From Chitinophaga pinensis (lineage in GTDB: Bacteria > Bacteroidota > Bacteroidia > Chitinophagales > Chitinophagaceae), in the NCBI GenBank assembly GCA_945878115.1, contig CAMDVD010000011.1:1-64000 (forward strand): a stretch of 64,000 nt of DNA. Reading direction: 5' to 3'. Below the pieces are notes generated by a model. The model was not told where the DNA came from. It was given only the letters and a program-made list of their open reading frames with translations, and did no database searches. This document shows, piece by piece, positions 45,643-54,747 of this stretch. The first letter of the stretch is position 1. Each line of letters starts with the position of its first letter. A program made the position numbers and the translations under genes.

Positions 45643-45687
45643 AGGATATGAATGGTATTTTATTTATTTACTGAGATTGTTGCATTC

Positions 45688-46233
45688 ATGATAAGCCATA
45701 GACAAACCCTTGAAAATACGGACCCAATCAATTGGTATGTTTTATACACACGACCCAGAGCGGAAAAAAAGGTTTTTGGTAAATTAGAGAGCCTAGGCTT
45801 TGAAGTATATCTCCCATTAATTCCGAGTATTCGAGTGTGGAGTGATAGAAAAAGAAAGGTTCATATTCCATTAATTCCAGGTTTTATTTTCATACATACA
45901 CAAATAAATGCGTTGTTGCCAGTGTTGCAATGTGCAGGCGTAGTGCGGGTTTTATGTCACTTGGGCAAGCCGGCGAGGGTGCGTCTTTGTGAAATTGACA
46001 ATTTGAAAATACTGATGAAAGACCCTTCTGTCATTAGTGTTACCAATATGGAAAGGCTAGAAGAAGGAGAAGAAATAGAAGTAATACGAGGTCCTTTTGT
46101 TGGACTCACTGGCTATTGCATTCGATATCAAGGAAAACATAGAGTAGTCGTAAAAATAGAATCTTTAGGTAGTATAGTAGAGGTGAATATACCTTTATCG
46201 TTTTTGGAAAAAAGACAAATGAGTATCGCATAA
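45688..46233 (+). CDS. UpxY/NusG-like transcription antiterminator
   Basis: 181 residues from ATG 45688; ATG 45652 is also in frame and would add 12 hydrophobic residues, but it lies almost at the predicted transcription start. NusG N-terminal domain: INWYVLYTRPRAEKKVFGKLESLGFEVYLP and IPLIPGFIFIHT. C-terminal KOW-like region: EGEEIEVIRGPFVGLTGYC. In Bacteroides, UpxY proteins are the first gene of capsule operons and let RNA polymerase read through the long locus. The position here, ahead of ~18 kb of polysaccharide genes, fits that role. Confidence 0.9.
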   Translation: MISHRQTLENTDPINWYVLYTRPRAEKKVFGKLESLGFEVYLPLIPSIRVWSDRKRKVHIPLIPGFIFIHTQINALLPVLQCAGVVRVLCHLGKPARVRLCEIDNLKILMKDPSVISVTNMERLEEGEEIEVIRGPFVGLTGYCIRYQGKHRVVVKIESLGSIVEVNIPLSFLEKRQMSIA

Positions 46234-46354: not shown

Positions 46355-47098
46355 ATGAATAAAAAAGTACGCATCGGATCATGGATAACCTTGAACCACA
46401 TGGCTATTGCTGAAATAATGGCAACGGCTGGCTTCGAATGGTTATGTATAGATATTGAACATAGTGTGATCGATTACTATGATTTGCAAGTGATGGTTGC
46501 TACCATTCAAAGTAAAGGGGTGAAGGCATTTGTGCGAGTTGGTGGCAATGATGCGATTATTTTGAAACGAGTCATAGACGCTGGTGTGGATGGTATTATT
46601 TGCCCCATGGTGAATACAAAGGAAGAAGCCGAACATTTGGTCGCCAATTGCAAGTACCCGCCACAAGGCACTCGTGGTGTGGGTTTGGCACGTGCGCAAC
46701 ATTATGGATTAGATCAAGGATTTGAAAAATATAAAACCGATAAGGCAAACCAAGTTGAAATCATTGCACAGATTGAACATATCAAAGCCATTCAAAATTT
46801 AGATAGTATTTTATCTGTAGAAGGCATTGATGGTACATTTATCGGACCTTATGATTTGTCGGGTTCAATAGGTAAACCAGGTTTGTATGATGAGGCAGAT
46901 GTGCAAGCACTGATAGCAACTTATGAACAAAAAGCAAAAGTAGTAGACAAATGGATGGGCTTTCATGTGATTCAACCACAACATCAATTAATTGCAGAAA
47001 AAATGGCAAAAGGGTATAATTTTATAGCCTTTAGTATAGACACTTTATTTTTAGGTATGTCTTGTAGAAACGAACTTCAAAAATTAAATATACAATGA
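46355..47098 (+). CDS. HpcH/HpaI-type pyruvate aldolase
   Basis: 247 residues. A metal-dependent class II aldolase of the 2-keto-3-deoxy-glucarate/4-hydroxy-2-oxo-heptanedioate family. Catalytic and metal residues: H36 (DIEHSV), R61 (FVRVGGN), E141 (AQIEHI) and D167 (FIGPYDLSGSIG); CPMVNTKEEAE and GTRGVG are family motifs. It condenses pyruvate with an aldehyde to give a 2-keto-3-deoxy acid, or the reverse. In this locus, followed at once by a CMP-KDO-synthetase-like gene (ATG overlapping its stop), a synthetic role is inferred. Confidence 0.9.
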   Translation: MNKKVRIGSWITLNHMAIAEIMATAGFEWLCIDIEHSVIDYYDLQVMVATIQSKGVKAFVRVGGNDAIILKRVIDAGVDGIICPMVNTKEEAEHLVANCKYPPQGTRGVGLARAQHYGLDQGFEKYKTDKANQVEIIAQIEHIKAIQNLDSILSVEGIDGTFIGPYDLSGSIGKPGLYDEADVQALIATYEQKAKVVDKWMGFHVIQPQHQLIAEKMAKGYNFIAFSIDTLFLGMSCRNELQKLNIQ

Positions 47099-47862
47099 AT
47101 ATTATAGGCATCATTCCAGCTCGAATGGCATCTTCGAGATTTCCCAATAAACCAATGAAATTGATACATGGTATTCCCATGGTCGGTCATTGTTTTTTTA
47201 GAAGTAAAATGAGTACACTTTTATCTGAAGTGTATGTAGCGACTTGCGATGAAGAAGTGTATGATTATATTGTAGCGAAAGGCGGTAAAAGTGTGATGAC
47301 TGCAAACACGCATGAGCGCGCTTCGGACAGAGCTGCAGAAGCAATCTTGAAAATCGAACAAGAAACAGGAAAGAAGGTAGATATTGTAGTGATGATACAA
47401 GGTGATGAACCAATGATAGTTCCTTCCATGATTGATGAAGCAGTGAAGCCATTATTGGAAAACCCAAACATAAAGATTACAAACTTGGTTGCTGATATTG
47501 AAACGATAGAAGAATTTGAAGACCCGAATGAAGTGAAAGTGGTCATGGATAATAAGATGAATGCGATTTATTTTTCTCGCGAACCAATTCCTTCTCGAAG
47601 AAAAGGGGTGTTGGATGTTCCTATGAAAAAGCAAGTGTGCATCATTCCATTTCAAAGAGATTTTTTATTAGAGTACAACGACATGGAACAAACGCCTTTG
47701 GAAATTATCGAATCTGTCGACATGATGCGATTACTCGAAAATGGTATTCCAGTGAAGATGGTGCCTACGCAAGTAAAAACAAAAGCGGTAGACACATTGG
47801 AGGATTTGTTGTTGGTTGAAAAATTAATGCAAGACGATAAATTAATGCAATCTTATTCCTAA
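47095..47862 (+). CDS. CMP-KDO synthetase-like cytidylyltransferase
   Basis: 255 residues. Nucleotidyltransferase start IIGIIPARMASSRFPNKPM, GIPMVGHCF, VYVATCDEEVYDYI, MIQGDEPMI (metal Asp) and YFSREPIPS follow KdsB. It activates a 2-keto-3-deoxy sugar acid as a CMP sugar. Whether it is the housekeeping kdsB or a paralogue for a different ulosonic acid cannot be read; its place behind an aldolase suggests the latter. Start overlaps the aldolase stop by 4 bases. Confidence 0.9.
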   Translation: MNIIGIIPARMASSRFPNKPMKLIHGIPMVGHCFFRSKMSTLLSEVYVATCDEEVYDYIVAKGGKSVMTANTHERASDRAAEAILKIEQETGKKVDIVVMIQGDEPMIVPSMIDEAVKPLLENPNIKITNLVADIETIEEFEDPNEVKVVMDNKMNAIYFSREPIPSRRKGVLDVPMKKQVCIIPFQRDFLLEYNDMEQTPLEIIESVDMMRLLENGIPVKMVPTQVKTKAVDTLEDLLLVEKLMQDDKLMQSYS

Positions 47863-47869
47863 AGTATTC

Positions 47870-48805
47870 ATGTACGATATCTTAGTTACATCCACCTCAT
47901 TTATAGACACACCTGGTAAACACCAGGAAATGCTTGCTAGCAAAGACTTACGACTACATTACGCTAGAGGTCCTTTGACGGAAAGTGAAATGCTTGCTCA
48001 AATTGCAGAATACGATGCATTGCTTTGTGGCGATGATGCACTCACCGAAAAGGTGATTCGATTAGGCAAAGAAAATAAATTGATTTGTATTTCAAAGTAT
48101 GGCGTTGGGTTAGATAAAATTGATTTACAAGCTGCGAAGAAATATGATATTCCTGTAACCAATTGTCCGGGAGTAAATCAAGTTTCTGTTGCCGAACATT
48201 TCTTTGGTTTATTACTTTGCTTCCTTCGAAATATTCATTTAGAATACAATGAAGTGCAAGGAAAAGGCACTTGGAAACGGATGACTGGTCATGAAATATT
48301 TGGTAAAAAAATGTTGATTATGGGCTTAGGTCGTATTGGTTCAGAAATCGCGAAACGTGCAGCCGCATTCGGTTTGGAACTGTATGCTTATGATCAAGTT
48401 TTATCTAAGGAAACAATGGAAGCCTATTCAATTCAATCTGTTACAAACTTAGAAGATGTGATTTCAGACATAGATATCATCAGTTTGAATTTACCTTTAA
48501 CGGATTCTACAAAGCATATCATTTCTGCAAGTCTCTTACAACAAGCGAAGAAAAATCTAGTGATCGTGAATACGGCAAGAGGTGAATTGGTGGATCAAGA
48601 TGCAATCATTGATGCATTAACTTCTGAAAAAATAGCGGGCTATATTACCGATGTTTTGGATATAGAACCCATGCCAGAAAATCATCCGCTGAGAAAATTA
48701 CCGAAGGTATTAATCTCTCCACATATTGCTTCACGTACAGTGGATAGTGTACAACGACAAGGCGTGATGGCAGTAGAAAATTTATTCCATAGTCTTAAAT
48801 TATAA
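47870..48805 (+). CDS. D-isomer-specific 2-hydroxyacid dehydrogenase
   Basis: 311 residues. The Rossmann NAD motif is MGLGRIGSEIAKRAAAFG (~145-162); catalytic Arg in VNTARGELVD, Glu in DVLDIEPMPENHPL and His in ISPHIASRTVD. It reduces a 2-oxo acid to a D-2-hydroxy acid or the reverse. Within a sugar-acid cluster its substrate is probably a carbohydrate-derived 2-oxo or hydroxy acid, not 3-phosphoglycerate. 7 bases after the previous gene. Confidence 0.92.
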   Translation: MYDILVTSTSFIDTPGKHQEMLASKDLRLHYARGPLTESEMLAQIAEYDALLCGDDALTEKVIRLGKENKLICISKYGVGLDKIDLQAAKKYDIPVTNCPGVNQVSVAEHFFGLLLCFLRNIHLEYNEVQGKGTWKRMTGHEIFGKKMLIMGLGRIGSEIAKRAAAFGLELYAYDQVLSKETMEAYSIQSVTNLEDVISDIDIISLNLPLTDSTKHIISASLLQQAKKNLVIVNTARGELVDQDAIIDALTSEKIAGYITDVLDIEPMPENHPLRKLPKVLISPHIASRTVDSVQRQGVMAVENLFHSLKL

Positions 48806-48809
48806 AGGT

Positions 48810-49700
48810 ATGCAAGTATTAGTCATCGGAGGAGCTGGGTTTTTAGGTAGTCATGTTGTGGATGAATTAATTCACCAAGGGCATGATACCAGTGTGTTTG
48901 ATCAGCAGGATTTAACATCAGCGCACGAAAAAATAGTTAGCGTGCATAAGAGCAGCATGGCGGATAAAGCAGCATTGGAAGAAGCAATCCAAGGCAAAGA
49001 CGCGATATTTATTTTTGCTGGCATTGCTGATATTAAAGAGGCACATGATCATCCGTATGAAACCATACAAACCAATGTGCTTTACCTAACTTCTATTTTA
49101 GAATTATGTGTGAAGCATCAAATTAAACGAGTGATTTATGCAAGCACCATTTATGTGTATAGCAATATGGGCTCCTTTTATAAAGCCTCTAAGCAATGCG
49201 CAGAAATTATTATTGAATCCTTTTTTGAAGAATATAATTTAGCTTATTCCGTGTTGCGTTATGGTTCTTTGTATGGACCTCGCGCCAATCATTTTAACTT
49301 TATTCATAATGCCATTAAAGAGGCGTTGCAAACAAAAAAAATTACACGTAAAGGCGATGGATTGGAGATGAGAGATTATATACATGTTGTTGATGCAGCA
49401 GTCGCTACGGTTAATCAACTACATGCTACATCGCCGAATGAGTATGTCATGATAACGGGCAATCAAACCATGCTGGTGAAAGATGTGCTCATGATGATAC
49501 GCGAGATTTTAGAAAATCAAGTAGACATAATTTTCGAAGAAGGCGAATTGGATGGGCATTATATGTTGACTCCTTATTATTTTAAACCTAAGGTTGCAAA
49601 GAAAATTGTACTGCCGGCTTATCATGATTTAGGGCAAGGTATTTTGCAATGTATACATGAAGTGTATCAAGAAATAAAAAAAGAAGAACCGAATTCGTAG
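48810..49700 (+). CDS. NAD-dependent epimerase/dehydratase (extended SDR)
   Basis: 296 residues. NAD motif VIGGAGFLGSHVV (5-17), DAIFIFAGIADIKEAHDHP, catalytic YKASK (Y and K) preceded by YASTIYVYSN, and RYGSLYGPRAN. SDRs of this class epimerise, dehydrate or decarboxylate nucleotide sugars; the exact reaction is not readable. TAG and the next GTG overlap by one base. Confidence 0.9.
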   Translation: MQVLVIGGAGFLGSHVVDELIHQGHDTSVFDQQDLTSAHEKIVSVHKSSMADKAALEEAIQGKDAIFIFAGIADIKEAHDHPYETIQTNVLYLTSILELCVKHQIKRVIYASTIYVYSNMGSFYKASKQCAEIIIESFFEEYNLAYSVLRYGSLYGPRANHFNFIHNAIKEALQTKKITRKGDGLEMRDYIHVVDAAVATVNQLHATSPNEYVMITGNQTMLVKDVLMMIREILENQVDIIFEEGELDGHYMLTPYYFKPKVAKKIVLPAYHDLGQGILQCIHEVYQEIKKEEPNS

Positions 49701-50386
49701 TGGAAATTCAAGTGAAAGGATTGAGTTGGGTGGTCATGAAATCCCCTGAAATATTGGCTGATGAACTAGTTCGAGCAGAGATGCTATCAAAACCAGATTC
49801 ACAACATTTTATTTTACCTGGTGGGAAATCCGTTCTGCCTTTGTATAACGCGATTGAACAACAAATCACTTCTTTCCCAAAAGCTTTTTTTTATTTAACC
49901 GACGAGCGCATGGTTCCTATCGGCAACCCAAATTCCAATGAAGGGCAAATCAAAAATAATTTTCCTGCATTATATAAAAAATGGATCGGGTTTCATGAGG
50001 CAAATTTTGAAGAGAAAATGCAGCAAATGCAAACCACGGAATATACTTGTATTATTGGTGTTGGCTTAGATGGACACTTCGCTTCTTTGTTCCCAAATGA
50101 TGGTGATTTTGCAGAAAATAAATTCCTTCATTCCTATAGCTTGCCGCAAGAAAATTATGCCAGAAAATCTCTAGGATTTCCTTTTTTTATGGGGGCACAA
50201 AAAATCATTCTTTGGTTGTTGGGAAAAGAAAAAGGAAGTATTGCACATTATTTTAAACAAGAAAATGTAGCCATGCCAATCATTCGACTTTGGCAATCTG
50301 TACAAACCCAAAACAAGGAATTGACCATTTATTGCAATGAAGATTTTTACACTTCATTTCATGCTGAATATCATGCAACAGTATAA
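49700..50386 (+). CDS. 6-phosphogluconolactonase/glucosamine-6-phosphate isomerase-like protein
   Basis: 228 residues from GTG 49700, overlapping the previous stop by one base. Family motifs: ILPGGKSVLPLYNAI (phosphate loop), FYLTDERMVPIGNPNSNEGQI (DER) and CIIGVGLDGHFASLFPN (GxGxDGHxAS). Known members hydrolyse 6-phosphogluconolactone or isomerise amino-sugar phosphates. In this cluster it may open a lactone of the sugar acid or isomerise its phosphate precursor; this is inference. Confidence 0.88.
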   Translation: MEIQVKGLSWVVMKSPEILADELVRAEMLSKPDSQHFILPGGKSVLPLYNAIEQQITSFPKAFFYLTDERMVPIGNPNSNEGQIKNNFPALYKKWIGFHEANFEEKMQQMQTTEYTCIIGVGLDGHFASLFPNDGDFAENKFLHSYSLPQENYARKSLGFPFFMGAQKIILWLLGKEKGSIAHYFKQENVAMPIIRLWQSVQTQNKELTIYCNEDFYTSFHAEYHATV

Positions 50387-50999
50387 AGGAATCATATTCG
50401 ATTTTGATGGTGTCATCTTGGATTCTGTAGATGTGAAAACAAAAGCATTCGCGTCCATGTATGCATTTTATGGTGAGGATATTGTACAGCAAGTTGTTGA
50501 ATATCATCTAGCGCACGGCGGTATCAGTCGCTTCGAAAAATTTAAACATTATAGCAATCATCTTTTACATGAAGTATTAAGCGATGAAGCTTCTGTAGAA
50601 TTGGGAGAACAATTCAATCAATTGGTTTTTGATAAAGTAATAGCGGCAGATTTTATCCCAGGGGCATTGTCCTTTATAGAAAAAGTGCAACATCAATTGC
50701 CTTTGTTTATTTGTACTGGAACACCTGAAACTGAAATAAATTTAATTTTAAAAGCAAGGAAATTAGATTCCTATTTTACCAAAGTATATGGTTCGCCAAA
50801 AAAGAAAAAAGAGATTATTGCAGAGATAAAAAGCTTATTGAATTGTTCATCTCAAGAGTTACTTTATTTTGGCGATGCAATGACGGATTATGAAGCGGCT
50901 ATGCATCATCAAATTGATTTTATTGGCGTAATTAATTCTGATAATCCATTTCCAAAGGATACGAAAGTGATACACGCTTTCGATGAAATTGAGGCATGA
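50373..50999 (+). CDS. HAD-superfamily phosphatase in the sugar-acid cluster
   Basis: 208 residues from ATG 50373, overlapping the preceding gene by 14 bases; a start at 50337 adds 12 unlike residues. Motifs: IIFDFDGVILDS (D10, D12), LFICTGTP (II), SPKKKKEI (Lys, III) and LLYFGDAMTDYEAA (IV), with a helical IA cap between I and II. A phosphatase is expected in ulosonic-acid pathways (as KdsC in KDO synthesis), which fits the neighbours. Substrate unknown. Confidence 0.88.
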   Translation: MQQYKGIIFDFDGVILDSVDVKTKAFASMYAFYGEDIVQQVVEYHLAHGGISRFEKFKHYSNHLLHEVLSDEASVELGEQFNQLVFDKVIAADFIPGALSFIEKVQHQLPLFICTGTPETEINLILKARKLDSYFTKVYGSPKKKKEIIAEIKSLLNCSSQELLYFGDAMTDYEAAMHHQIDFIGVINSDNPFPKDTKVIHAFDEIEA

Positions 51000-52336
51000 G
51001 TAACAAGAAGAAATATGCCTTTTTAATAAACCATGGTGTTGAAGTTCGCCATTTTATCTTGAGTGGTTTATTACAACAAGTACAAGCATCGAATGATGCA
51101 TGTATACTGGTTCGTCAAGAAATTGATTCACCTGCATTGAAAGAATATATTAGCCAATATCATGTAGAAGCGGTAAGACTTCCTTTCGCATCTAGCCTTA
51201 AAAGAAGACATCGTTTAGAAGCCTATATCACAGCGATTCGAAAAGCAAGAAAGCGTGTAAAGGGTCTAGGGAATTTTCATAATTTCCAAAAAGAAAATAG
51301 AGGTATATCCATGAGGGATAGAATACTAAGTTTTCCCTTAGTCGTAAAGCTTGCTATGTATGTTGGTATCAAAAAATTACGACAACATTATACACAAACA
51401 GAAGTAGTTGATTTTCTGCAACAACAGCATATCACAGATTTGGTATTATTAGAATACAATAGTCCATTATTATTGCTGTTTGGGTTTTCCGCAAATCATT
51501 CCAATATAAAAGTGCATGTGGTAATGAATACCTTGAAAACTTTTTTCGTGAATGATTTTATTCCATTTTCCTTGCACCGATTTTATGCTTGGAATCTGGA
51601 GCAAACCAAATTGTTTCAACAAAGCAATCCACATCAAAATAAGGAAAGTATAGTTTGTGGAGGGAATCCCTATTATGCATTTTTCGTCAATTCGATGTTT
51701 GATGCGGAAGTCGAAAATGTACAGTCGAAATATGCTGCCTTACAAGGAAAAAAATGGATAGTGTATTCTTTGATTTATGAAAAAATGTTTGCGCATGAAT
51801 ATGCTTTGTTGGAAATTTTGAACAATGCAATTACAGAATTATTTGCAAAGGAAAATAGACCTTGTTTGCTTATTCGTCGTAATCCATTTGAGGAAAAAGT
51901 GGAACTGATTGAAAAATTAGCTCGTTTAGAAAATGTAATTATAGCCGATCACCTTTGGGAAAGAGATAGCGAAAAAGAATGGTCGATACAATATGTGCAA
52001 GGTGAAAAAGAATGGAAATTATTTTTGCAACAAGCAGCTCTTTGTATGAATATCCCTTCCATGGCGGGTTACGAGGCCATTATTTCTGGAACGCCTGTTT
52101 TGAATATTGGCTTTGATGCCGAAGGAAAGCCATCTGTTGAGTTGGAACATTTTACAAAAGCACCTTTTATGAAGGATGTGAATCAAAGTGAATTTATTGA
52201 AGTTTGTACCACAACAGATATGTTGAAAAAGGAATTGCCCATTTGGCTGAACAAAAAAAATGAACAAAGGAAGGAGTATATTCGCTCGTCCTTAGATTTT
52301 ATTTTATTTGACTGTAAAGATTTTTTACTACATTGA
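50996..52336 (+). CDS. Unknown protein with GT-B glycosyltransferase-like C-terminal region
   Basis: 446 residues, ATG overlapping the preceding stop. No signal and no membrane helices. The N-terminal half (VEVRHFILSGLLQQV) is Rossmann-like. The C-terminal half has CGGNPYYAFFVN, KKWIVYSLIYEK, then MNIPSMAGYEAIISGTPVLNIGFD, which resembles the nucleotide-sugar-binding Glu/Ser motif of GT-B glycosyltransferases. It lies directly after the cytidylyltransferase block and could transfer the CMP-activated product. The family was not recognised. Confidence 0.72.
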   Translation: MSNKKKYAFLINHGVEVRHFILSGLLQQVQASNDACILVRQEIDSPALKEYISQYHVEAVRLPFASSLKRRHRLEAYITAIRKARKRVKGLGNFHNFQKENRGISMRDRILSFPLVVKLAMYVGIKKLRQHYTQTEVVDFLQQQHITDLVLLEYNSPLLLLFGFSANHSNIKVHVVMNTLKTFFVNDFIPFSLHRFYAWNLEQTKLFQQSNPHQNKESIVCGGNPYYAFFVNSMFDAEVENVQSKYAALQGKKWIVYSLIYEKMFAHEYALLEILNNAITELFAKENRPCLLIRRNPFEEKVELIEKLARLENVIIADHLWERDSEKEWSIQYVQGEKEWKLFLQQAALCMNIPSMAGYEAIISGTPVLNIGFDAEGKPSVELEHFTKAPFMKDVNQSEFIEVCTTTDMLKKELPIWLNKKNEQRKEYIRSSLDFILFDCKDFLLH

Positions 52337-52367: not shown

Positions 52368-52775
52368 TTGCATACAGCAAATCCACATATCATTCAATTA
52401 CCCAAAATTATTGACCCTCGTGGGAATTTGTCTTTTATAGAAGAAGAAAATCATATTCCTTTTAATATCGCACGAACCTATTGGATTTATGATGTGCCCG
52501 GTGGTGAAATTCGTGGAGGTCATGCATACAAAGAATTACAAGAGTTTATTATTGCTTTGAGTGGAAGCTTTGATGTGATTCTTCATGATGGGAAGGAAGA
52601 AATTAAATATCATTTGAATAGATCCTATAATGGATTGTTCGTACCTAAAATGTATTGGCGAAGTATAGAAAATTTTTCTACAAATAGTGTTGCCTTGGTA
52701 TTGTCAGATGATGTGTACAATGTGAATGAATATATTCGTGATTTCGAAGAGTTCAAAAAAATGAGAAATTCATGA
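52368..52775 (+). CDS. FdtA/QdtA-like cupin, possibly inactive copy
   Basis: 135 residues from TTG 52368; there is no ATG before the conserved region. WxcM/FdtA-type cupin (IIDPRGNLSFIEEENHIPFNIARTYWIYDVPGG). FdtA-type enzymes convert dTDP-4-keto-6-deoxyglucose to the 3-keto sugar. In the active-site motif RGxHxH, the second His is Tyr here (H52 then Y54). Its tandem neighbour keeps both. It may be a non-catalytic partner or have another specificity. Confidence 0.85.
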   Translation: MHTANPHIIQLPKIIDPRGNLSFIEEENHIPFNIARTYWIYDVPGGEIRGGHAYKELQEFIIALSGSFDVILHDGKEEIKYHLNRSYNGLFVPKMYWRSIENFSTNSVALVLSDDVYNVNEYIRDFEEFKKMRNS

Positions 52776-53191
52776 TGAAGTATACTGCTTTCGATTGTCA
52801 TATTTTGCATCTACCGGTCATCCATAATCGGGCAGGAAACATTACACCTGTTGAAAATTCAATTACCCTTCCATTCGATATTCAAAGAGTTTATTATTTA
52901 TATGATATTCCAGGTGGCGAGACAAGAGGAGCGCATGGACATAAAAACTTGGAGTCGCTGATAGTAGCTGTGAGCGGCAGTTTTGATGTTACAATTGATG
53001 ATGGTAAAAATAAAAAAAGAATACATTTGAATCGCCCATATTTAGGATTAAATCTGAAGCCAGGTATGTGGAGAGATATTTCCAATTTTTCAAGTGGTGC
53101 TATTTGTTTAGTACTGGCTGCACAAAAATATGATGAGACGGACTATATCCGTTCCTACGAAGATTTTTTAAATTATAGACAGCATGGCTAA
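52772..53191 (+). CDS. fdtA: dTDP-4-keto-6-deoxyglucose 3,4-ketoisomerase
   Basis: 139 residues; ATG overlaps the previous stop by 4 bases. Cupin barrel with [34 protein letters not shown]; both active-site His present (H55, H57). The FdtA product leads to Fuc3NAc and the QdtA product to Qui3NAc; the two are not separable by eye, so the symbol is provisional. Acetyltransferase and aminotransferase for the same sugar follow. Confidence 0.88.
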
Positions 53192-53642
53192 AATACACCC
53201 ACTAGCAGATGTACAAAGTATGCATATTGGTGATGCTACGCAGATATGGCAGTTTTGTGTTGTTTTACCGAATGCGAAAATTGGAAATAATTGCAATATC
53301 AATTGTCATGTATTGATAGAGAATGAAGTAGTTATTGGCAATCATGTAACTATCAAACCAGGCGTTCAAATATGGGATGGTGTTCACATTGAAGACCATG
53401 TTTTCATCGGGCCGAATGTTACTTTTACCAATGATTTATTCCCGCGTTCAAAAAATCCGAATTGGGAATTGAAAAAAACTTGGATTAAAAAAGGAGCCTC
53501 CATAGGTGCAAATGCAACTATTTTGGCTGGTATTGTCATTGGCGAAAATGCAATGATTGGCGCAGGTAGTGTAGTGACAAAAGATGTTTTACCGAATACG
53601 ATTTGCTATGGCAATCCAGCTAAGGAGATCAGAAAAATATAA
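53184..53642 (+). CDS. fdtC: Sugar N-acetyltransferase (FdtC/WbpD-like hexapeptide family)
   Basis: 152 residues. A left-handed beta-helix: [58 protein letters not shown], then [20 protein letters not shown] and [21 protein letters not shown]. The NDLFPR loop is typical of WbpD/FdtC enzymes that acetylate the 3-amino group of dTDP- or UDP-linked sugars. Overlaps fdtA by 8 bases. Confidence 0.9.
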
Positions 53643-53646
53643 GAGA

Positions 53647-54747
53647 ATGATTAAGTTTTTAGACTTACAAAAAATAAATCTGCAATATCAAGAAGAGATT
53701 GAAGCGAGTTTATTACGAGTTTTTAGAAGTGGCTGGTACTTGCAAGGCGAGGAAGTTCGTCAATTTGAAAAAAACTTTTCCAATTATATCGGCACGCCTC
53801 ATGCCATTGGTGTGGCAAATGGAATGGATGCTTTGCGTCTTATTTTAAGAGCCTATATGGAATTGGGTTTTATGCAAGAAGGCGATGAAATTATAGTTCC
53901 ATCAAATACGTATATCGCCTCTTTACTCGCTATTACAGACAATCGTTTGGTGCCAGTATTGGTCGAACCAAGTTTAGCAAATTACAATATGAATTTGTCT
54001 TTGGTTGAAGAAAAAATTACAGCCAAAACAAAAGCAATTATGTTGGTCCATTTGTATGGACAGGTTTCTTTTTCTACAGAGATTGTTTCCTTCGCAAAAA
54101 AATATCAATTGCAAATTATTGAAGACAATGCCCAAGCTATTGGTGCCATGTATGATGGCATTAAAACGGGAAACTTAGGCGACGTGGCTGGTTATAGTTT
54201 TTATCCTGGAAAAAATTTAGGCGCGCTTGGCGATGGTGGTGCCATTACATGTAAGGACGATGCATTAGCGATGAAGATAAGGTCTTTGGCTAATTATGGA
54301 TCGTCTCAAAAATATGTCCATGTTTGTAAAGGATGGAATAGTCGCTTAGATGAAATACAAGCCGCCATTTTGGATGTAAAATTAAAATACATTGAAATAG
54401 AGAATGCCAAAAGAAGAATCATTGCCAAACGATATTGTACTGAAATTAAAAACGATAAACTAATACTGCCTACTTTTCCTCTACAAGAGAAAGAACATGT
54501 ATGGCATTTGTTTGTGGTTCGTACTGCCAATCGATTGGATCTACAATCTTACTTGCTTGCCAATGGTATTCAAACATTAATACATTATCCAATACCTATT
54601 CATCATCAAGAAGCTTATGCAGAATTGAAAACTTTGCAATTGCCTATATGTGAAAAAATACATGATGAAGTACTGAGCATTCCTATAAGTTCTGTACTAG
54701 AGGATACAGAAATTGAACAAATCATTCATTGCTTAAATGCATATTAA
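53647..54747 (+). CDS. fdtB: DegT/DnrJ/EryC1-family sugar aminotransferase (FdtB-like)
   Basis: 366 residues from ATG 53647, 4 bases after the acetyltransferase stop; the longer frame to 53584 runs inside that gene and is rejected. PLP enzyme: [11 protein letters not shown] start, [44 protein letters not shown] (PLP Asp and Gln), and [16 protein letters not shown] with the PLP Lys; [12 protein letters not shown] at the sugar site. It transaminates the 3-keto sugar made by FdtA to the 3-amino sugar. Confidence 0.93.

Follow-up and report, generated by a model that had tools for sequence, protein, structure and literature searches.

The stretch analysed here, the window, comprises 64,000 nucleotides of Chitinophaga pinensis (assembly GCA_945878115.1, contig CAMDVD010000011.1, positions 1 to 64,000). 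On its + strand, positions 46355-52336 hold a cassette of seven genes, six of which encode candidate enzymes for a sugar acid activated with cytidine monophosphate (CMP). A preliminary description of this DNA had reported seven tightly coupled genes and assigned their products to families. All seven frames are indeed present, with junctions that overlap or lie 4-7 bases apart, and Pfam returned the named families for six of the seven proteins (PF03328, PF02348, PF00389/PF02826, PF01370, PF01182 and PF13419). The features of the locus are:

46355..47098, + strand: ALD, HpcH/HpaI class II pyruvate aldolase, 247 amino acids (PF03328, 117.9 bits, cut-off 25)
47095..47862, + strand: CMPT, KdsB-type cytidylyltransferase with changed active-site residues, 255 amino acids (PF02348, 155.9 bits)
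47870..48805, + strand: HADH, D-2-hydroxyacid dehydrogenase, phosphoglycerate-dehydrogenase-like, NAD-type by Asp175 (PF02826, 186.2 bits)
48810..49700, + strand: SDR, extended short-chain dehydrogenase of the NDP-sugar-epimerase type (PF01370, 136.7 bits)
49700..50386, + strand: PGL, 6-phosphogluconolactonase-family protein, GTG start (PF01182, 74.7 bits)
50373..50999, + strand: HAD, phosphatase-like protein of the HAD_2 type with a DFDGV motif (PF13419, 70.8 bits); the frame has its first ATG at 50337, and the ATG at 50373 is the likelier start
50996..52336, + strand: protein of 446 amino acids, family unassigned, perhaps a glycosyltransferase (no match in Pfam, NCBIfam or PDB sequences)
45652..46233, + strand: UpxY-family transcription antiterminator, which heads the locus (NF033644, 138.3 bits, cut-off 100)

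The pairing of aldolase and cytidylyltransferase, on which the preliminary description had built a pathway, is conserved: the two genes occur together in 14 of 14 loci selected by the aldolase and 7 of 7 selected by the cytidylyltransferase. In the first survey, a search of 395 genomes of the class (E ≤ 1e-40) gave 16 other aldolase matches, and all 16 regions were fetched. The 14 matches at 45-67% identity each had a cytidylyltransferase nearby, KdsB-type in 3 and PseF-like in 11, and the three PseF-like proteins scanned fell under the PseF cut-off. The same 14 loci contained an SDR (14/14), a HADH (13/14), a HAD protein (13/14) and, in the slot held by PGL in the window, a hydrolase (13/14; PF04199 in 10 and PF01182 in 3, never both). 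The hydrolase was missing in L097, while the missing HADH (L095) and HAD (L101) both fell at contig ends. The two matches at 40% identity (L099 and L100) had none of the cassette partners, and L099 has a weak GFO-type match. Likewise, 25 loci of named genomes with aldolases at 33-40% identity, several of them shorter than the full flanks, had no cytidylyltransferase match; a 26th locus is a near copy of the window's cassette (L033).

Partners were called with BLAST using the window proteins, with Pfam, and with profiles built partly from the same loci. BLAST agreed with the profiles for SDR (14/14), HADH (13/14) and HAD (13/14), and Pfam agreed on the two hydrolase families and placed PF02348 in 12 of the 14 loci, plus L098. 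The cytidylyltransferase of L095, truncated where its contig stops, was called by profile search alone. The near copy L033, from a separate metagenome-assembled genome record, contains the entire seven-gene run at 87-99% protein identity. Since most functions also recur together in other genomes, the gene run is not a product of chance.

The second survey started from the cytidylyltransferase in 395 genomes of the phylum and considered the 8 top matches other than its own, found in 7 genomes. An aldolase lay near seven of the eight, the eighth (G028) being on a 7.3-kb contig. This cut was drawn post hoc, and the next two fetched regions (L066 and L068) had no aldolase. The seven loci held HADH (6/7), HAD (5/7), FkbM (4/7), SDR (3/7) and GFO plus SIS proteins (3/7). 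Three of them (L060, L063 and L064) encode an FkbM methyltransferase but no hydrolase, and L062, on a 12.9-kb contig, has no HADH, SDR or hydrolase. Judged by gene content, the aldolase, cytidylyltransferase, HADH and HAD protein are the steady core of the cassette, with an oxidoreductase and a hydrolase that vary. Our literature searches returned no description of this gene set.

CMPT passed two NCBIfam subfamily models for cytidylyltransferases of Kdo (3-deoxy-D-manno-octulosonic acid), scoring 296.6 against a cut-off of 255 and 265.5 against 193, but it fell under the kdsB equivalog cut-offs (TIGR00466, 151 against 155.2; NF003948, 164 against 281). In a tree, 14 KdsB-type sequences (those of cassettes plus L065, L067 and L010) grouped together (support 100/99) and separately from 27 other KdsB sequences, which were judged unlinked to cassettes mostly from 3.7-kb loci. 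Without L065, L067 and L010 the support was 87/72. A table in PMC12058783 lists the KdsB active-site residues, from template 3DUV, as Lys74, Gln98, Arg157, His185, Glu214 and Gln215. We mapped these through the alignment of CMPT to chain 1vh3, an H. influenzae-type chain equal to 3duv in length and almost equal in score. Of the six listed residues, five are identical in 1vh3; Lys74 is not and was left aside. The positions of Gln98, Arg157, His185, Glu214 and Gln215 are occupied in CMPT by Q102, R162, Q180, D209 and M210, of which Q102 and R162 are kept.

The other three residues replace the His, Glu and Gln of KdsB in 10 of 10 cassette copies (L033 and L010 were omitted from residue counts as near copies). 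Among the 27 other KdsB sequences, His and Glu are found in 27/27 and Gln in 26/27, the exception being an Asn in the second copy of the window's genome. Position 184 is Tyr in 27/27 of the others and Ile in 10/10 cassette copies; in the two L065-type copies, which also have Q180, D209 and M210, it is Met (M184). Residues R10, R15, K19, R79, D104 and D233 are kept in 10/10 cassette copies. Roles in handling CTP and magnesium are described for R10, R15, K19, D104 and D233 in a section of PMC3149649 on the Aquifex enzyme, with positions here matched by motif rather than by direct alignment. The same section has the C-terminal domain of Aquifex KdsB (residues 100-210) binding Kdo, and we therefore read the changes in CMPT as lying on the sugar side. 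They suggest that the chemistry of activation is unchanged while the sugar is another one, and CMPT would most likely activate a 2-ulosonic acid other than Kdo.

These results bear on whether CMPT is simply a second, KpsU-like CMP-Kdo synthetase, with the other enzymes devoted to an unrelated substituent, for instance a 2,4-dihydroxy acid or an aldonic acid. The two subfamily cut-offs passed and the presence of KdsA in the genome speak for this explanation. However, the failed equivalog cut-offs, the residues replaced in every cassette copy counted, the separate tree group, and the PseF-like enzymes that fill the slot in 11 of the 14 aldolase-selected cassettes make it decidedly improbable in our view. 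The preliminary description had named two findings that would refute its pathway: neighbours that are not conserved together, which the surveys above do not bear out, and CMPT being the sole kdsB of the genome beside a catabolic aldolase. The inventory of the genome came out differently from the latter as well. A second cytidylyltransferase of the same family (KdsB) lies on contig C86, unlinked to the window's contig C11, so CMPT is not the only kdsB-like gene. The one KdsA over its cut-off is on contig C13, hence not linked to CMPT either, and no NeuB-family synthase (PF03102) was matched in the window's genome. The unlinked KdsA is thus the only possible partner found for CMPT among synthases dependent on phosphoenolpyruvate (PEP). 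In most other cassette genomes a NeuB match does occur elsewhere (19/22, some weak). ALD and PGL are the genome's sole PF03328 and PF01182 genes, and two further strong 2-hydroxyacid dehydrogenases are present.

Turning to the aldolase, ALD shows both the family profile and the active-site motifs of HpcH/HpaI pyruvate aldolases. Its nearest solved sequences are YfaU and HpaI-type aldolases, with whose active-site motifs H36, R61, E141 and D167 align; we take these residues to be catalytic. Among cassette rows having letters at these positions, H36 and R61 are kept in 22/22 and D167 in 23/23. ALD nevertheless falls under the NCBIfam equivalog cut-offs of YfaU/HpaI/GarL-type aldolases. In a tree of 51 sequences, the 24 cassette rows required 2 label changes against a shuffled mean of 17.1. 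Loci L069-L085, being sub-stretches of larger loci, were omitted from this tree and its alignment.

An aldolase of this type could also belong to a catabolic sugar-acid operon of the non-phosphorylative Entner-Doudoroff type that lies near polysaccharide genes by chance. Such pathways typically include an SDR, a lactonase and an HpcH aldolase. Against this, none of the seven frames encodes a sugar-acid dehydratase, the cytidylyltransferase is conserved in the set, and the surroundings are those of a surface-polysaccharide locus, leaving this explanation extremely improbable. Besides the UpxY gene, the surroundings include two FdtA-like genes and a hexapeptide transferase gene 3' of the cassette (window 52368-54747) and, further 3', frames that by eye resemble aminotransferase (DegT-type), ABC-transporter and glycosyltransferase genes. 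The FdtA-like pair, hexapeptide transferase and DegT-type aminotransferase suggest that the same polymer contains a dTDP-Fuc3NAc-like sugar. The product of the cassette is most likely used in a surface polysaccharide.

The remaining enzymes keep the marks of their families. For HADH the best NCBIfam match was PGDH, at 227.4 bits against an equivalog cut-off of 454; R237, E266 and H285 are invariant and D175 nearly so among 15 aligned members. All 12 aligned members share S112, Y124 and K128 of SDR. An Asp after the Rossmann motif is a sign of NAD preference, and by this sign both SDR and HADH look NAD-type. PGL scored 71.8 bits against the NCBIfam pgl equivalog cut-off of 124.45, with the family motifs TDER and GLDGHFASLFP kept. 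We considered whether PGL could be a sugar-phosphate isomerase, as the preliminary description had also entertained, and set this aside given the PF04199 hydrolases that occupy its slot in 10 of the 14 aldolase-selected relatives; the SIS isomerase of three other loci is a possible pointer to it. The swapping of two unrelated hydrolase families at this position suggests that both do the same job, the simplest candidate being the opening of a lactone made by SDR. Spontaneous opening of the lactone would explain loci that have no hydrolase.

Taken together, we consider it reasonably probable, from gene content and conserved residues, that the cassette makes a CMP-activated ulosonic acid other than Kdo and requires the aldolase to do so. 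The preliminary description had SDR and the dehydrogenase tailoring the ulosonic acid; in our reading an oxidation arm, comprising SDR to a lactone, the lactonase and the dehydrogenase, fits the gene content better. SDR would oxidise a phosphorylated aldose to a lactone, which the lactonase would open unless it opened spontaneously, and the HAD enzyme would take off the phosphate. The NAD-type HADH would then convert the 2-hydroxy acid to a keto acid, the HpcH aldolase would lengthen this by a three-carbon unit from pyruvate, and the cytidylyltransferase would activate the aldolase product with CTP. This exact order is tentative, and we doubt that all of it is right.

Several observations weigh against this reading. 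The slot hydrolase was found in none of the seven cytidylyltransferase-selected loci and SDR in only three; L059, L065 and L067 have GFO/IDH/MocA and SIS proteins in place of the cassette SDR and hydrolase, and HAD is missing in L059 and L063. The nearest solved relatives of SDR are NDP-sugar epimerases and similar enzymes. One PF04199 protein scanned matched NCBIfam arylformamidase under its cut-off, and PF04199 proteins need not be lactonases. In the aldolase tree, the non-cassette rows L099 and L100 branch within the cassette group, beside L065 and L067. Outside the phylum, a plasmid of the alphaproteobacterium Acuticoccus (L105) speaks for the reading by its gene order (aldolase, cytidylyltransferase, dehydrogenase, HAD, SDR), but no hydrolase was matched in this locus. 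Finally, four alphaproteobacterial loci (L106, L107, L108 and L113) pair a cytidylyltransferase with a dehydrogenase and have no aldolase within ~10 kb on either side. Given the gaps in hydrolase, SDR and HAD among the cytidylyltransferase-selected loci and L105, the oxidation arm must be regarded as variable.

The aldolase-free pairs also favor a purely oxidative route, in which HADH oxidises an aldonic acid and the resulting 2-ketoaldonic (non-deoxy ulosonic) acid is CMP-activated directly, with the aldolase serving another branch or using hydroxypyruvate. In the same direction, a dehydrogenase in L060 (6185-7993) is fused to an N-terminal cytidylyltransferase-like domain that looks degenerate, and several cassettes (e.g., L088, L090 and L091) have the gene order SDR-hydrolase-HAD-dehydrogenase. 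Yet the aldolase keeps its active-site motifs and accompanies the cytidylyltransferase in every strong aldolase-selected locus and every cytidylyltransferase-selected locus that was long enough. We hold the purely oxidative route to be unlikely, albeit one to be reckoned with. Because of the aldolase-free pairs and the L060 fusion, the 2-keto acid could be created by either the aldolase or the dehydrogenase, and we leave the order open. If all six enzymes acted in one line, an aldose phosphate would pass through lactone, aldonate and 2-ketoaldonate, which would then accept pyruvate by way of the aldolase before CMP activation. The product would be a branched ulosonic acid bearing one more carboxylate. 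We consider this joint reading of route and product quite improbable; if true, it would represent a new class of CMP-sugar, formed independently of PEP.

Plasmid records were examined for 3 of 77 with a KdsB-type match, 7 of 69 with a PseF-like match, and 1 of 528 with an aldolase, the last being the same Acuticoccus record. Two Rhodobacterales plasmids (L106 and L113) have a third lactonase family, SMP-30, at a distance of 5-6 kb from their cytidylyltransferase-dehydrogenase pair, which is a weaker link; L107 has no annotated SMP-30 gene, and a scan of six L108 frames gave none. In the Thalassovita (L106:1-4136) and Sulfitobacter (L113:4188-8859) plasmids, SDR and SMP-30/gluconolactonase genes lie ~1-7 kb from the pair, and in the Thalassovita plasmid they come after kpsF-kdsB-kdsA. 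L106, L107 and L113 also have annotated MptE-like genes close to the pair. Two Enterobacter and E. coli plasmid loci with distant cytidylyltransferases were rejected, as they carry a NeuB-family synthase instead. The kdsA-SIS-kdsB row of a Streptomyces plasmid (L102:7554-9729) is a different set, and an unexpected one in a bacterium without lipopolysaccharide. Cytidylyltransferases such as CMPT can hide behind names: those of the alphaproteobacteria are annotated as acylneuraminate cytidylyltransferase, and that of the window matches Kdo-cytidylyltransferase subfamily models.

The proposal that the 446-residue protein, described earlier as GT-B-like, is the dedicated transferase was not supported by comparison with other genomes. 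A relative was found in 1 of 294 other genomes of the class (G533, 25% identity, not among the aldolase-matching genomes) and in none of the 26 regions compared by BLAST; the protein stands outside the conserved set. Its AlphaFold model, built from two near-identical sequences, was unusable (mean predicted local distance difference test score, pLDDT, 36.9). In L061-L064, proteins of one homologous family are encoded directly 3' of the cytidylyltransferase, and the two scanned (L062 and L064) pass the TIGR04326 cut-off. Given this position and family match, they are candidate transferases of the sugar in those loci, and better ones than the 446-residue protein.

Other genes near cassettes include an AroB-related putative cyclizing sugar-phosphate phospholyase in G185 (L059:2974-4095; TIGR04425, 432.2 bits, cut-off 400) and a cysteate synthase shortly after the KdsB-type cytidylyltransferase of G469 (L098:13437-14963; TIGR03844, 373.6 bits, cut-off 324.9). 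A protein of 272 amino acids between HAD and the aldolase (L086:7711-8526) is MptE-like/Maf-type by eye and had no NCBIfam match.

To our knowledge, the sugar of every CMP-ulosonic acid pathway is assembled by a synthase that depends on PEP. A cassette that recurs and seemingly relies on a pyruvate aldolase, or perhaps on nothing but oxidation in certain relatives, would provide one more route to charged sugars of the cell surface. It would also suggest further ulosonic acids in the glycans of Bacteroidota, with six candidate enzymes for making them.

The Kdo pathway, as outlined in a section of PMC3149649, comprises KdsD, KdsA, KdsC and KdsB. Where it has the PEP-dependent KdsA, the cassette has an HpcH pyruvate aldolase, and it adds two dehydrogenases and often a lactonase-type hydrolase, besides the changed active-site residues of its cytidylyltransferase. 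The two are alike in the KdsB-type cytidylyltransferase, in an HAD-type phosphatase, which KdsC also is, and in the three-carbon extension of the skeleton that we propose for the cassette. Nonulosonic acid pathways, which pair NeuB, PseI or LegI with NeuA, PseF or LegF, likewise activate an ulosonic acid with CMP, and a PseF-like enzyme is present in 11 of the 14 cassettes; unlike them, the cassette shows no NeuB-family gene beside its aldolase, nor does the rest of the window's genome. The surface carbohydrate family TIGR04326 (LIC13510) includes the two scanned proteins of the family that follows the cytidylyltransferase in L061-L064; no match to it was seen in the window's cassette. The YfaU, HpaI and GarL aldolases, which act in catabolism, are the closest solved relatives of the cassette aldolase and have active-site motifs in common with it. 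The cassette aldolase differs in scoring under their equivalog cut-offs and in residing beside a cytidylyltransferase within a surface-polysaccharide locus.

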